From Angustibacter luteus (GTDB lineage: Bacteria > Actinomycetota > Actinomycetes > Actinomycetales > Angustibacteraceae), in NCBI RefSeq assembly GCF_039541115.1, contig NZ_BAABFP010000004.1, positions 174,005 through 238,004 on the forward strand: a stretch of DNA of 64,000 nt. The letters run 5' to 3'. Every line of letters begins with the position of its first letter. Within the stretch, counting starts at the first letter, position 1. Below the pieces are notes generated by a model, which did not search any database, was not told the DNA's origin, and worked only from the letters and a program-made list of their open reading frames with translations. Of this stretch, positions 5,445 through 18,795 are shown one piece after another. Made by a program: the position numbers and the translations under genes.

Positions 5445-6464
5445 CTATCGTCGACGCTCCGACCGCACGACGATCACCCGTTGGACGACGATGAAGAGCA
5501 GCAGCAGGAGGCCGATGATGATCCGGGTCCACGCCTGCTCGGCGCCCATGAAGGAGATCACCGTCTTGATGGTGCCGTAGACGAACACCCCGATCATCGA
5601 CCCGAGCACGTACCCGGTGCCGCCGGACAGCAGCGTGCCGCCGATGACCACCGCAGCGATCACGTCCAGCTCGGTGCCGATCCCGTTGCGGGGGTAGCCG
5701 GCCCCCGAGTACGCGGTCAGCACCAGCCCGGCCAGTCCGCCGCAGGCGCCGCTGATCACGTACACCAGCACCTTGGTCCGGGCCACCTCCAGACCCATCA
5801 GCCGCGCGGACTGCTCGTTGCCGCCGACCGCGTAGATGGTCCGCCCGAACCGGGTGGCGACCATGACGAAGGCGCCGACGAGGACGACCAGCAGCGCGAT
5901 GATCCCGGTCGGCGTGATGTACCACTGGCCGACGGCGAACCGCTTCGTCTCCAGCCACAGCACGCCGGAGTGCTCGACCCGGACCGACTTCAGGCTCACC
6001 ACGTAGGCGAGCCCACGCGCCAGGAACAGACCGGCCAGCGAGGCGATGAACGGCTGCACGTCGAAGAACTGCACGAGGACGCCGATGACCAGCCCGATGG
6101 CGGCGCCGACGAGGATGGTCAGCGGCACCACCAGGTACGGGCTGACGCCCGCGCTGAGCAGCTTCGCGCACAGGATCCCGGTCAGCGCCAGCACCGACCC
6201 CACGGACAGGTCGATGCCACCGGTGACGATGACGAACGTCATCCCCACCGCGAGGATGAGCAGGAAGGCGTTGTCCAGCAACAGCGCCGACATGTTCAAC
6301 GGCGTGACGAAGTTGCCGAAGTAGAGCTGGGCACCGACCAGCAGCAGCACGAAGATCGTGACCGCGGCGAACGTCGGCATCAGCGAGGAGCGGCGGCTCA
6401 GGAACGCGCGGAGCGCCGAGGGGAACCCCGCGAGGCGCCGGCCGTCAGCGGTGATGCTGCTCAT
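5445..6464 (-). CDS. yjfF: Sugar ABC transporter permease, YjfF-like
   Basis: 339-residue integral membrane subunit with about nine or ten hydrophobic helices. The CUT2 permease signature is clear: LLDNAFLLILAVGMTFVIVTGGIDLSVGSVLALTG (residues about 63-97) and the later IGGTLLSGGTGYVLGS coupling segment. It matches the YjfF member of the E. coli galactofuranose importer YtfQRT-YjfF, remembered from family knowledge. ATG 6464 overlaps the stop of the preceding YtfT-like gene (ATGA), so the two permeases are translationally coupled and probably form a heterodimeric channel. Some bacteria use the same four-gene type for L-arabinose, which fits the ara genes next door. Confidence 0.9.
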   Translation of the reverse strand: MSSITADGRRLAGFPSALRAFLSRRSSLMPTFAAVTIFVLLLVGAQLYFGNFVTPLNMSALLLDNAFLLILAVGMTFVIVTGGIDLSVGSVLALTGILCAKLLSAGVSPYLVVPLTILVGAAIGLVIGVLVQFFDVQPFIASLAGLFLARGLAYVVSLKSVRVEHSGVLWLETKRFAVGQWYITPTGIIALLVVLVGAFVMVATRFGRTIYAVGGNEQSARLMGLEVARTKVLVYVISGACGGLAGLVLTAYSGAGYPRNGIGTELDVIAAVVIGGTLLSGGTGYVLGSMIGVFVYGTIKTVISFMGAEQAWTRIIIGLLLLLFIVVQRVIVVRSERRR

Positions 6465-15413: not shown

Positions 15414-15566
15414 GTGATCATGCACGTTCGCCCCCATCCGTCGTGCCCCTCCCCCCACCCCCCCCCGTGATCATGCACGTTCGCCCCGGTCCGGCGTCCT
15501 CGCTCAGCCGGCCCGGAGGGCGAACGTGCATGATCACCGCGGGGTGGGGCGAACGTGCATGATCAC
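15414..15566. repeat. Four copies of a 21-bp intergenic repeat (two direct, two inverted)
   Basis: Copies start at 15414 and 15467 (plus orientation, GTGATCATGCACGTTCGC followed by CCC) and lie inverted at 15518-15537 (one end base changed) and 15546-15566. The second and third copies can form a 20-bp stem with a 30-base loop, so the cluster can act as a two-way terminator between convergent araA and the TetM-like gene. The last inverted copy overlaps the stop codon of the TetM-like gene. Spacers are C- or G-rich. It resembles a REP-type element. Confidence 0.85.
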
Positions 15567-17593
15567 CACGGGTTGCGGTTAGGGCGGGTTGGGGGCCAGG
15601 TGCGTCCCACCCGGCGGGCCGTCGTTCGCAGGTAGGCGTCCCGGTGGGTGGGGTCGTCGTCCGTCCGTGGCCGGGTGGGCGGTCGGCCCGCGATCGGCTG
15701 GTAGCAGTCGAAGGATGTGGTGAGGTTGCCCTCGCCGCGGGTCAGGTCCGGCACCTGCTGGTGCAGGTCGTGCACCTGCGCCGCTGGAATCGTGCCCTCG
15801 ATCAGCAGGCCCCCGTGGCGGCTCGTCGTCGCCAGCGGAACCGCGCGATGCGTCGGCAGGACGGCGAGCGCCACCTGCTGGGACTCGGTGGGCAGCTCCA
15901 GCTCGAACCGGTGCAGCGGCTCACAGACGACCGTGCCGGCTTGCTGCAGCGCGGTCATCAGGACGAGTCGGGAGAGGTAGCGGAAGTCCGCTGCGGTGCT
16001 GGAGATGCTCTTCGTGAAGGCAGCGTGCCCGAGGCTCTGCCGGGCCCAGTAGCCGCTGTGCGTCATGGTCACGACGCAGTCGAGGATCTGCCAGCCGTGC
16101 GGTCCCTGTTCCACCGTGGCCGCAACCGTGTCCTGGACCGCCGTGAAGAACGCGGCGGGCATCGACCCACGCTCGACCTCGAGGCCGAACCGGACGCCGG
16201 AGCCGACCGGCGCGGGGTCGACGCGCAGCCCCACTCCGGCCAGGAACGGGTTGGAGCGCCAGCCGAGCTGCTCGACGCAGTGACCGCTGCCGACCACCTG
16301 CTCGACGCACAGCGGCGTGGAGCGGCGGAACTCGACCCGGACGTCGTACTCGGACTCGAGCAGTCCGGCGAGCACCTCCTTCTGCACCTCGCCGTACAGC
16401 GAGACGGACAGCTCGCCGCGGGCGTCGTCCTGCCGCACGTCGATCAACGGGTCCTGCTCAGCCAGCTGCTGCAGGCCCTGGTACAGCCGGATCCGGTCGG
16501 CCTCGTCGATGGCGCTGATCACCGTCTCCAGGGACGGTCGGGCGAACTCGTGCCGGGGGCGGACGCCGGCCGGCGCCGGCCCGATCCGATCGCCGACTCG
16601 GGCCGACTCCAGCCCGCGCAACCGGCCGATCTGCCCGGCCCGCAGGCAGTCCGCCACGGCGTGCGTTCCGTCGGCGAACACCGTGATGGCGGTGACCTTC
16701 TCGGGGCGGCCGTGACCGAGGTCGAGGTGGTCCCGCGTGCGGATCGTGCCCCCGGCCAGGTGCACGTAGACGAGCTTCTCGGCGGCGCTGCCCCGCTCCA
16801 CCTTGAACACCACGCCCCGCGCCTCGCCACTGTCGTCCGTGTCGACGACGGGAAGGAAGCGGATGAGCGCGTCGAGAAGCTCATCCACCCCGGCGCCGGT
16901 GATGGCCGAGCCGAACAGCACCGGCGTCGCTGCGCCCTCCCGGAACTGCCGCACGAGCCGTGCCATCAGGTCGTCGTCCGTGATGCGTTGCGGCCCACCG
17001 GTTGCCGCGTCGAGCACCTCGTCGTCCCGGGCCGCGACGACCTCCTCGACCTCGTCGTGCCAGCGCGCCGCGTGTGGGTCGCGGGCCACCACGGTGGCTG
17101 CTCGGGTGCCGGCGCCGACGACGTCCTGCAGGGTGACGCTGGCGGGGGCCAGGCGGGCCCGCAGCTGCCCGACCACGTGGCTCGGGCGCGCGCCGCGACG
17201 GTCGATCTTGTTGACGAACACCACCGTGGGGATGCGAAGTCGTTGCAGCGCACGGAAGAGGACGACCGTCTGCGCCTGCACGCCCTCGACCGCCGAGACG
17301 ACCAAGACCGCCCCGTCGAGCACCGCCAGCGAGCGCTCCACCTCCGCGATGAAGTCGGAGTGCCCCGGGGTGTCGAGCAGGTTGACGGTCACGCCACGGG
17401 TCACGAAGGACGCGACGGCGGCGCGGATGGTGATGCCACGGCGGCGCTCGAGCACCATCGTGTCGGTCTGGGTGGTGCCGGCCAGGACACTGCCCGGCTC
17501 GTCGAGGACACCCACCTCGTAGAGCAGCCGCTCCGTCAGGCTGGTCTTGCCAGCGTCAACATGCGCGACGATCCCAAGATTCAACGTACGCAC
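15563..17593 (-). CDS. TetM/Otr(A)-type ribosomal protection GTPase (EF-G paralogue)
   Basis: 676 residues. G-domain motifs are intact: G1 AHVDAGKTSLTERLL (residue about 10), RGITI, DTPGHSDF, NKIDRRG. Domains II-V of the EF-G fold follow, with the ribosomal-protection-type segments RLRGLESARVGDRIG, ETVISAIDEADRIRLYQGLQQLAEQDPLIDVRQDD and DCVVTMTHSGYW. Such proteins expel tetracycline from the 30S subunit; in soil actinomycetes Otr(A)-like members are often intrinsic. The arginine-rich C-terminal tail of about 35 residues (TRPRTDDDPTHRD.. onward) extends beyond TetM. GTG 17593 is the start. No mobile element flanks it and base composition equals the surroundings, so recent transfer is not supported. 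Actual resistance is unproven. Confidence 0.88.
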   Translation of the reverse strand: MRTLNLGIVAHVDAGKTSLTERLLYEVGVLDEPGSVLAGTTQTDTMVLERRRGITIRAAVASFVTRGVTVNLLDTPGHSDFIAEVERSLAVLDGAVLVVSAVEGVQAQTVVLFRALQRLRIPTVVFVNKIDRRGARPSHVVGQLRARLAPASVTLQDVVGAGTRAATVVARDPHAARWHDEVEEVVAARDDEVLDAATGGPQRITDDDLMARLVRQFREGAATPVLFGSAITGAGVDELLDALIRFLPVVDTDDSGEARGVVFKVERGSAAEKLVYVHLAGGTIRTRDHLDLGHGRPEKVTAITVFADGTHAVADCLRAGQIGRLRGLESARVGDRIGPAPAGVRPRHEFARPSLETVISAIDEADRIRLYQGLQQLAEQDPLIDVRQDDARGELSVSLYGEVQKEVLAGLLESEYDVRVEFRRSTPLCVEQVVGSGHCVEQLGWRSNPFLAGVGLRVDPAPVGSGVRFGLEVERGSMPAAFFTAVQDTVAATVEQGPHGWQILDCVVTMTHSGYWARQSLGHAAFTKSISSTAADFRYLSRLVLMTALQQAGTVVCEPLHRFELELPTESQQVALAVLPTHRAVPLATTSRHGGLLIEGTIPAAQVHDLHQQVPDLTRGEGNLTTSFDCYQPIAGRPPTRPRTDDDPTHRDAYLRTTARRVGRTWPPTRPNRNPW

Positions 17594-17749: not shown

Positions 17750-18250
17750 CTACCCGTCCAGGACGAGCCACTGCCGGCCGTCGACGAGCTCGCGCGCCGC
17801 GTCCAGGTGTCCTGCGTGGCAGGCGGTCTCGGTGATCACGTGCAGCAGGACCTCGTCACGGTCGGCCAACCTCCAGTCGCCCGGGCCTTGCGGCCACCAC
17901 CGCGGCGCGGCACCCGGCGACGTAGCGGCGATCACGTCGTCCGCGAGCGCGATCTCGGCCCGGTAGCGGTCCAGTACGGCGTGCGACGGCACCGCGGCGT
18001 CCACCTGCCAGGCGTCGTCGTCCCGCTCGATCGCAGCGACGACGTCCGGGTCGCCGGCAACAACCCCGCGGAACCAGAACCGCTCCACGTCGAGGGCGAG
18101 GTGCTGCACCAGGCCGAGGCAGGACCACCCCGACGGCAGGACGGGACGGCGCAACGCGTCGTCGTCCAGACCCTCGAGGATGCCCAGGACGTGCCGGCGC
18201 TGGCCCTCCAGCCAGCTCTGCAGGGTGTCGGTCTTCGTGGTGGCGCTCAT
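17750..18250 (-). CDS. DinB-fold protein, DUF664/mycothiol-dependent type
   Basis: 166 residues, four-helix DinB/YfiT-like fold. The metal-binding histidines appear in the expected places: VQHLALDVERFWF (residue about 50) and HVITETACHAGHLDAARELVDG near the C-terminus, where the H-x3-H type pair closes the site. Actinobacterial DUF664 proteins are thiol-dependent (mycothiol) transferases or detoxifiers; substrate here unknown. ATG 18250 follows GAGGAG. It diverges from the YCII gene, and both have the same TGTCGA-N17-CGACGTC element upstream, so they are likely switched on together by one ECF sigma factor. Confidence 0.85.
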   Translation of the reverse strand: MSATTKTDTLQSWLEGQRRHVLGILEGLDDDALRRPVLPSGWSCLGLVQHLALDVERFWFRGVVAGDPDVVAAIERDDDAWQVDAAVPSHAVLDRYRAEIALADDVIAATSPGAAPRWWPQGPGDWRLADRDEVLLHVITETACHAGHLDAARELVDGRQWLVLDG

Positions 18251-18288
18251 GACGCTCCTCGGTGGTCGCGGGGGATCGGATCACCTGG

Positions 18289-18318
18289 GACGTCGGAACC
18301 GTCGGCCCCTTCTCGACA
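18289..18318 (-). promoter_or_regulatory. ECF42-like promoter for the DinB gene
   Basis: Read on the minus strand: TGTCGA (18318-18313), 17-base spacer, CGACGTC (18295-18289), then the DinB start at 18250. This agrees with the -35 TGTCGA and CGA/TC -10 elements described for ECF42 sigma factors. Element and spacing are the same as for the promoter of the divergent YCII gene. Confidence 0.7.
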
Positions 18319-18334
18319 CCCGGATCTGATGGGA

Positions 18335-18364
18335 TGTCGAGAAGCTGGTGCCGGCTCCGACGTC
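18335..18364 (+). promoter_or_regulatory. ECF42-like promoter for the YCII gene
   Basis: TGTCGA at 18335-18340, 17-base spacer, CGACGTC at 18358-18364, about 38 bases before the YCII start. YCII/DGPF genes are the known genomic partners of ECF42 sigma factors, which fits. The two -35 elements and their GAAG flanks together form the inverted repeat CTTCTCGACA/TGTCGAGAAG (18309-18344). Confidence 0.75.
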
Positions 18365-18402
18365 CCCGGTGAACGATCCACATCGACCCAGGAGGTCTAG
18401 TC

Positions 18403-18795
18403 GTGAAGTACGTGATCCTGATCCACGCCAACCCCGAGCCGTGGGGGCACCCGACGTCCCTCTACACCGAGGAGGGCCGCGCCATCTCCGCCGAGCAGCA
18501 CGACGAGATGGACCGGCAGTTCGACGCGCTCCTCACGGAGATCTCCGGCTCCGGCGAGCTGGTCAGCGCCGAGGCGCTGGGCGACCCCGCGACGTCCCGG
18601 CTGTTCCGGTGGACGGCGACGGACCGGCTGGTGACCGACGGCCCCTATGCGGAGACGAAGGAACAGCTGGCCGGCTTCTTCATCATCGACGTCGAGTCCC
18701 GCGAGCGCGCCGACGAGATCGCCGTGCAGTTCGCCGGGCCTGGCAGCATGGTCGAGCTGCGGCCGGCCATGTGGTCCGGCGGCGACGACCAGTGA
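18403..18795 (+). CDS. YCII-related (DGPF domain) protein
   Basis: 130 residues, a single dimeric ferredoxin-like YCII domain. It opens with MKYVILIHANPE, contains the DGPYAETKEQLAGFFIIDVES core that gives the DGPF name (here DGPY), and ends with VELRPAMWS. GTG 18403 has a strong AGGAGG site. The biochemical role of such proteins is unknown; in actinobacteria they accompany ECF42 sigma genes and are expressed from TGTCGA-type promoters, as seen upstream. The matching sigma gene is not in this window. Confidence 0.9.
   Translation: MKYVILIHANPEPWGHPTSLYTEEGRAISAEQHDEMDRQFDALLTEISGSGELVSAEALGDPATSRLFRWTATDRLVTDGPYAETKEQLAGFFIIDVESRERADEIAVQFAGPGSMVELRPAMWSGGDDQ

Follow-up and report, generated by a model that had tools for sequence, protein, structure and literature searches.

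Mirror-image ECF42-type promoters at a YCII locus of Angustibacter luteus that lacks its sigma gene, and their probable reading in trans by a resident paralog

The ECF42 promoter motif of Streptomyces venezuelae is TGTCGA followed by CGA/TC, and Liu in 2018 reportedly described ECF42 target promoters with a TGTCGA -35 box and a -10 box of the CG(A/T)C type. PMC8999054 and PMC6180224 describe the ECF42 group as sigma factors with YCII as a conserved neighbour, without an anti-sigma factor and with a long C-terminal extension on which activity depends, and they indicate that the YCII protein may join in the regulation. According to PMC6180224, the promoters of RpoE10 from Sinorhizobium meliloti read TGTCG...CGTC, its remote targets include the glyoxalase-like SMb20475-SMb20474, and the YCII gene SMc01151 still adjoins the gene for RpoE10. 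ECF42 sigma factors, their YCII neighbours and promoters of the TGTCG type are therefore already known. The locus of Angustibacter luteus described in this study is similar to the known members of the group (Sven_0747, Sven_4377 and Sven_7131 of S. venezuelae, RpoE10, and ECF-10 of Pseudomonas putida) in its YCII gene and promoter type, but it differs from them in that no sigma gene adjoins YCII and in that a mirror-image copy of the promoter precedes a divergent gene of the mycothiol-S-transferase (MST, DinB/DUF664) family. RpoE10 is like the case proposed here in that an ECF42 factor acts on genes for small enzymes that lie outside its own locus; its remote targets, however, belong to another family, and it has retained its YCII neighbour. 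The literature searched, outside which the main ECF42 papers lay, held no account of MST/DUF664 genes in ECF42 regulons, for which an earlier description is possible, nor of orphan ECF42 targets that switch their -10 class, and the accessible parts of PMC8103513 and PMC9205884 mention neither YCII nor DinB.

The window, i.e., the whole stretch of DNA that was analysed, comprises 64 kb (C4:174005-238004 of the host genome), and the spacer between the two divergent genes occupies its positions 18251-18402. The MST gene (17750-18250, minus strand) encodes a protein of 166 aa, which matches PF04978 (E 4.5e-35, 121.7 bits against a cut-off of 27) and DinB_2 (E 2.4e-11) and contains H50, H145 and H148, which we take to be metal ligands. 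The YCII (DGPF-like) gene (18403-18795, plus strand) starts with GTG and encodes a protein of 130 aa matching PF03795 (E 4.7e-11, 43.4 bits against a cut-off of 24). Judging from the sequence, AGGAG at 18255-18259 on the minus strand and AGGAGG at 18390-18395 on the plus strand are the probable ribosome-binding sites of the MST and YCII genes, respectively. Both genes are preceded by TGTCGA-N17-CGACGTC with zero mismatches, exactly where the first-pass annotation had placed these sites. The site of the MST gene lies at 18289-18318 on the minus strand (-35 box TGTCGA at 18318-18313, 17-bp spacer, -10 box CGACGTC at 18295-18289) and that of the YCII gene at 18335-18364 on the plus strand (-35 box at 18335-18340, 17-bp spacer, -10 box at 18358-18364). 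The pair points outward, the facing -35 boxes are separated by a gap of 16 bp (18319-18334), 24 of the 30 positions are identical between the two sites, and in both genes the start codon is found 38 bp past the end of the -10 box. No other exact copy occurs in the window. Both strands thus carry the TGTCGA -35 box and the CG(A/T)C-type -10 box, as TGTCGA-N17-CGAC, of an ECF42 target promoter, and similar loci elsewhere suggest that the sites function as such. The MST gene is adjoined, on the minus strand at 15563-17593, by a gene for an EF-G-like GTPase, which presumably resembles ribosomal-protection proteins.

We regard the footprint upstream of orthologous YCII genes as the strongest evidence that the window sites did not arise by chance. 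A search of relatives (E<=1.1e-38) detected orthologs of the window YCII gene in 12 of 118 other genomes, and a genome collection contained at least 568 YCII relatives; we retained the best 80, and half of them (40) were at least 53% identical. Both searches were pooled into a set of 50 loci, the window included and three shared genomes counted once, in which the orthologs are 53-70% identical to the window protein. The 160 bp upstream were scanned for TGTCGA (at least 5/6) - N17 - CG(A/T), with 100 dinucleotide shuffles as the control. The element was present at N17 upstream of 46 of the 50 pooled orthologs (shuffles: mean 3.1, maximum 10), and with an exact TGTCGA upstream of 38 (mean 0.2, maximum 2). 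Other spacings from 12 to 22 gave at most 6 of 50, except spacing 20 (35 of 50), a secondary peak that is expected because CGACGT contains CGT three bases on. An ECF42 gene is located directly downstream of YCII in 34 of the 50 pooled loci (40 of the 50 came from the best 80 of at least 568 relatives), two of which, L157 and L165, have it in broken frames. The other 16 loci, the window included, are orphans, among them L159 with an ECF42 gene 3.3 kb away. In many Actinomycetes this element is also found ahead of YCII-ECF42 operons, which bears out the ECF42-like character that the annotation had given to the sites. In the motif that it had proposed, the -35 box and the spacing of 17 stood, but the closing TC of the -10 box is not general across loci; the functional -10 element seems to be a CGWC/CGTN tetramer at spacing 17, followed by bases that vary by sigma subtype. 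By its gene order and orthology the window locus is the orphan form of a YCII-ECF42 operon, that is, an ortholog without its sigma gene. The orphan state required 8 changes on the best YCII tree (sigma-linked label, bootstrap range 7-9), and the supported branches force at least 3; a class scan found a window-type YCII gene in 17 of 394 genomes, host included. In three Nocardioides loci (L161, L162 and L163) another ECF42 gene lies on the opposite strand, about 2.5 kb upstream of the window-type YCII-ECF42 operon. At L170 (Leekyejoonella antrihumi) a near-palindrome at about 5935-5964 can be read as TGTCGA-N17-CGAC on either strand, so that one element could serve both directions there.

The genome-wide searches that the first-pass annotation had suggested, for the promoter and for an ECF42-type sigma gene, were both productive. 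TGTCGA-N17-CGACGTC occurs three times in the 4.16 Mb host genome, the window pair included, and the third copy (C5:250106-250135) sits within a long ORF of coding-like base composition. The relaxed pattern TGTCGA-N17-CGWC has 26 sites, whereas its reversed form has 2. Ten of the 26 lie outside coding-like ORFs when judged by a rough test of base composition. L082 and L083 are the window pair, L080 and L096 are promoters of YCII genes in two ECF42 operons, and the other six (L078, L081, L085, L088, L091 and L092) are possible extra ECF42 targets. Seven sigma genes of the DUF6596 (ECF42) type, L015-L021, are present in the genome, and none of the seven matches falls within C4:174005-238004; accordingly, no ECF42 sigma gene adjoins the YCII gene of the window. 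The annotation was right that the window holds no such gene and that the pair is a remote member of a regulon, but the sigma factor cannot be called absent, as it had been, because seven paralogs exist and one of them lies 51.6 kb past the right edge of the window. This paralog, L018 (C4:289607-290860), is the only host ECF42 gene without a YCII neighbour in its locus of 3.3 kb, and none of the nine YCII matches in the host genome is near C4:290 kb; the other six, L015, L016, L017, L019, L020 and L021, have a YCII match just upstream. The cis promoters of the host operons read, after TGTCGA-N17, CGTTCT (L015), CGTGTA (L016), CGTCAT (L020) and CGCTCA (L021), and that of L017 is TGTCGA-N17-CGACGTAC. 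No cis ECF42-type promoter was found for L019, whose operon includes the YCII gene L022 without a site, and no TGTCGA-N17-CG site was found upstream of the YCII genes L027, L028 and L030 or within 500 bp ahead of the matched domain in the 11 other host MST genes.

In each of the four trees constructed, a single branch set off the sigma factors encoded beside window-type YCII genes, and no host sigma fell among them. Support for this branch was 92 SH-aLRT in the first tree (34 window-linked rows), 85 in the second (32 rows) and 100/97 in the fourth (6 representatives), and only 45, which is not firm, in the 132-row tree (28 rows). It follows that the host either lost its ortholog or never had one. 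That the orthologous sigma gene had instead moved to another place in the host genome was also considered and is unsupported, as none of the seven host sigmas falls in the window-linked group. Matches scoring <=400 are in none of the trees (among them L157, L165, L171 and L180), and L162_1727 was dropped from the first. The second was built without L162_1727, L206, L205, L159_8632 (the L211 sigma), the L122 sigma, L102 and L103 (same genomes as L131 and L143) and L222 (same genome as L221), and the 132-row tree further without ten Streptomyces rows, one Nocardioides row, four window-linked rows (L099, L141, L147 and L154) and the fragments L306 and L307.

Among the host paralogs, L018 is nearest to the missing type in sigma2-4 (mean identity 58%, maximum 66%, against 10 representatives), followed by L015 (54/60), as compared to means of 41% and 39% for L017 and L020. 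In the 132-row tree (88) and in the fourth tree (84/88), L018 falls together with Terrabacter, Terracoccus and Humibacillus sigmas, and L207-L209 of this group have their own YCII operons behind TGTCGA-N17-CGACGTC. The sigma-linked Streptomyces operons examined in the wider L018 clade also read CGACGTC; the clade is not uniform, and CGACCG (L167), CGACAC (L170), CGACAT (L172) and CGACCA (the G219 sigma) are found in it as well. The -10 preference of L018 is taken from these relatives because it has no YCII operon of its own. The protein consists of 417 aa with sigma70 region 2 (PF04542, 1.4e-07), region 4 (PF08281, 1e-11) and DUF6596 (PF20239, 1.8e-35), and a C-terminal extension is present; in ECF42 factors this part is TPR-rich and spans about 200 residues, but no Pfam TPR family matched L018 at E<=0.001. 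The gene (L018:949-2199) begins 11 bp downstream of one whose AAA_16 match is weak (32.0 bits, cut-off 32.6), and the 500 bp before it hold no ECF42 site, so L018 is probably not self-activated. Region 2.2 of L018 reads QLAG where nearly all other sigmas shown read QEAL or similar, which makes its activity uncertain. The genome G001, of the same genus as the host, has no window-type YCII gene at E<=1e-10 and no L018-like sigma (best L018 match 47%), and no ECF42 site accompanies its MST relative (61%); this one comparison agrees with the idea that L018 and the window pair may be kept or lost together. L015 (C7) had been considered as the cognate sigma, being the best of five paralogs queried by tblastn (about 50-53% to the linked sigmas; L018 and L021 were not among the five), and it was dropped because L018 was then included and the L015 type sits behind CGTTCT/CGTCCT-like promoters.

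Mirrored promoters of MST and YCII genes were also found in Actinopolymorpha rutila (L128), an actinomycete MAG (L130) and Kocuria coralli (L150). These operons are similar to the window in the mirrored promoters and in both gene families, but differ in having a sigma gene after YCII and -35 boxes that are further apart. Together with L118, L122 and L123, six non-window MST genes carry ECF42-type sites. The view of the first-pass annotation that a DinB/DUF664 gene belongs to the regulon gains from these six genes and from the element in the window; mycothiol use by the window protein is putative, its basis being the name of the PF04978 family. The L118 site has CGTCGA as its -35 box and lies 1.7 kb from a YCII-ECF42 operon. 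The L122 (G062) and L123 (G015) sites read TGTCGA-N17-CGACCTA; a convergent ECF42 gene adjoins the L122 MST gene, and there is no ECF42 match within the 1.5 kb flanks of L123. An ECF42-type site was detected in 4 of 16 MST matches, the window's own counted among the 16 (L111, L118, L122 and L123), and L116 and L119, which are cut at contig ends, showed none in the available 317 and 47 bp upstream and were left out of the final MST tree. The six site-bearing MSTs form a supported group (95/93), and the window MST is placed just outside, beside siteless relatives, its nearest ones (57-67% identical) having no ECF42 site; its own site was therefore gained separately, or such sites were lost in several relatives.

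The relation between orphan promoters and resident sigma factors was examined in the 15 orphan genomes besides the host and in G001, using ECF42-type matches at E<=1e-30, of which 55 were added to give the 132-row tree; it takes in neither the G123 duplicates of G099 nor seven matches whose identity was 32-36%. None of the resident sigmas placed in this tree groups with the window-linked type. All eight genomes whose orphan, the window's included, has the -10 element CGACGT possess a sigma of the wider CGACGTC-reading clade (outside the L015/L021 branch), as against none of the six whose orphan reads CGTCAT or CGTCAG (L133, L166, L104, L108, L109 and L160, the last with a degenerate -35 box only). 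All six of the latter have another sigma subtype (seven-row clade, 99), in which six of seven promoters read TGTCGA-N17-CGTCA(T/C), four as CGTCAT and two as CGTCAC. In this subtype L310 has its site upstream of the sigma gene with no YCII detected, and L309 showed no promoter in the scanned stretch. Two or three YCII matches stand before the sigma gene at L308, L309 and L311-L314 (G019, G107, G059, G130, G128 and G001). Two of the 16 orphans fit neither class, L137 having no site and L148/L105 reading CGATGT. Fisher's test of 8/8 against 0/6 gave p=3.3e-4, computed on related genomes, and the independent contrasts, 2 pairs on supported branches (3 on all), went in the expected direction and are too few for significance. 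Two orphans from the class scan had not been used in forming the idea. In G216 the orphan promoter has CGACGTCT where the operon of the resident sigma has CGACGTCC; in G219 the -10 element is CGACCACG and that of the resident sigma operon CGACCAGG. The latter approximately agrees with the advance prediction of CGACCAC. The other half of this prediction, that the G219 sigma would be of the L215/L216 type, failed, and this sigma groups weakly with two Kribbella sigmas. Because it belongs to the wider CGACGTC-reading clade, the clade alone does not predict the -10 element, but the promoter of the resident operon does. In Streptomyces, eight loci (L174, L176, L177, L179, L181, L184, L194 and L204) encode a YCII protein of another type, 34-38% identical to that of the window, behind a TGTCGA-N17-CGACT(G/C)T site and with no ECF42 gene in the stretch examined; CGACT(G/C)T matched none of the sigma-linked subtype promoters examined. 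These orphans and the mixed -10 elements in the wider clade weigh against a simple rule linking -10 element and sigma, and also against the readings proposed below.

Our favoured reading, to which we assign a probability of about two in three, is that the window contains two real ECF42-type promoters that co-activate the MST and YCII genes, that the orthologous sigma is gone, and that L018 is the likeliest reader in trans. An ECF42 holoenzyme, most likely with L018, would start both genes together, and the promoters would have been kept because another ECF42 paralog reads them from a distance. The window YCII protein could then be the partner of the YCII-less L018, giving a split signalling pair, and the response would perhaps remove a reactive compound with mycothiol after a signal has been sensed via the C-terminal part of the sigma factor.

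Chance is scarcely conceivable as the origin of the pair, even in GC-rich DNA where loose matches are common. The window has 11 sites with <=2 mismatches against 7.6 expected, which is not significant since 17 of 100 shuffles reach 11, but the exact matches number 2 against about 0.02 at most (0-0.02 per 64 kb, both strands, from 3 Mb of simulated Markov sequence at each of orders 1, 2 and 3, with 1, 0 and 1 exact sites, respectively), and they combine the same distance to both start codons with the footprint in 46 of 50 orthologs. It is very improbable that the sites are relics, decaying after the loss of the sigma gene while a housekeeping promoter runs the genes: the lack of an adjacent sigma gene, the siteless L137 and the degenerate -35 box of L160 would fit such decay, but both window sites are perfect, and eight orphans in several genera, the window included, keep CGACGT at N17.

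Two further explanations accept the promoters as active and differ in the reader. That several ECF42 paralogs read the pair, which would make it a shared output and not the target of one sigma, is unlikely in our judgement; seven paralogs coexist, and the host ECF42-linked sites found share TGTCGA and spacing 17, but the -10 elements vary from one sigma subtype to another and a resident subtype is matched by most orphan promoters, which suggests insulation. Quite unlikely, too, is reading in trans by another single paralog such as L017 or L020. The L017 cis promoter also reads CGACGT, with GTT before it, the L020 promoter starts TGTCGAGAAGGG like the minus-strand site of the window, and TGTCGAGAAG is present in 3 of the 26 host TGTCGA-N17-CGWC sites, i.e., the window pair and the L020 operon. 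Against this, L020 has CGTCAT as its -10 element, G019, G107 and G130 have close L017-type sigmas and yet orphan YCII promoters with CGTCAT/CGTCAG, and both paralogs are less like the missing sigma than L018 is.

Beyond the window, we tentatively propose, at odds that fall just short of even, that orphaned ECF42 targets have repeatedly been adopted by a different resident paralog. The -35 box and the spacing would be kept, and the -10 element would be CGACGTC where a CGACGTC-reading paralog is present and otherwise become CGTCA(T/G) or CGACCA like the resident promoter; the subtypes would be insulated channels told apart mainly by the -10 element, and the window pair would have been handed to a sigma without YCII. 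ECF42 is a widespread sigma group, and its paralogs are often many, with seven in the host and 16 matches in one Kribbella genome. The question addressed is how so many similar ECF42 sigmas stay separate. Orphan loci are natural experiments on it, in which an orthologous target meets differing sets of resident sigmas and the -10 element mostly goes with the sigma set. The window would also tie an MST/DUF664 enzyme to the ECF42 response, which offers a possible biochemical setting for the YCII protein.
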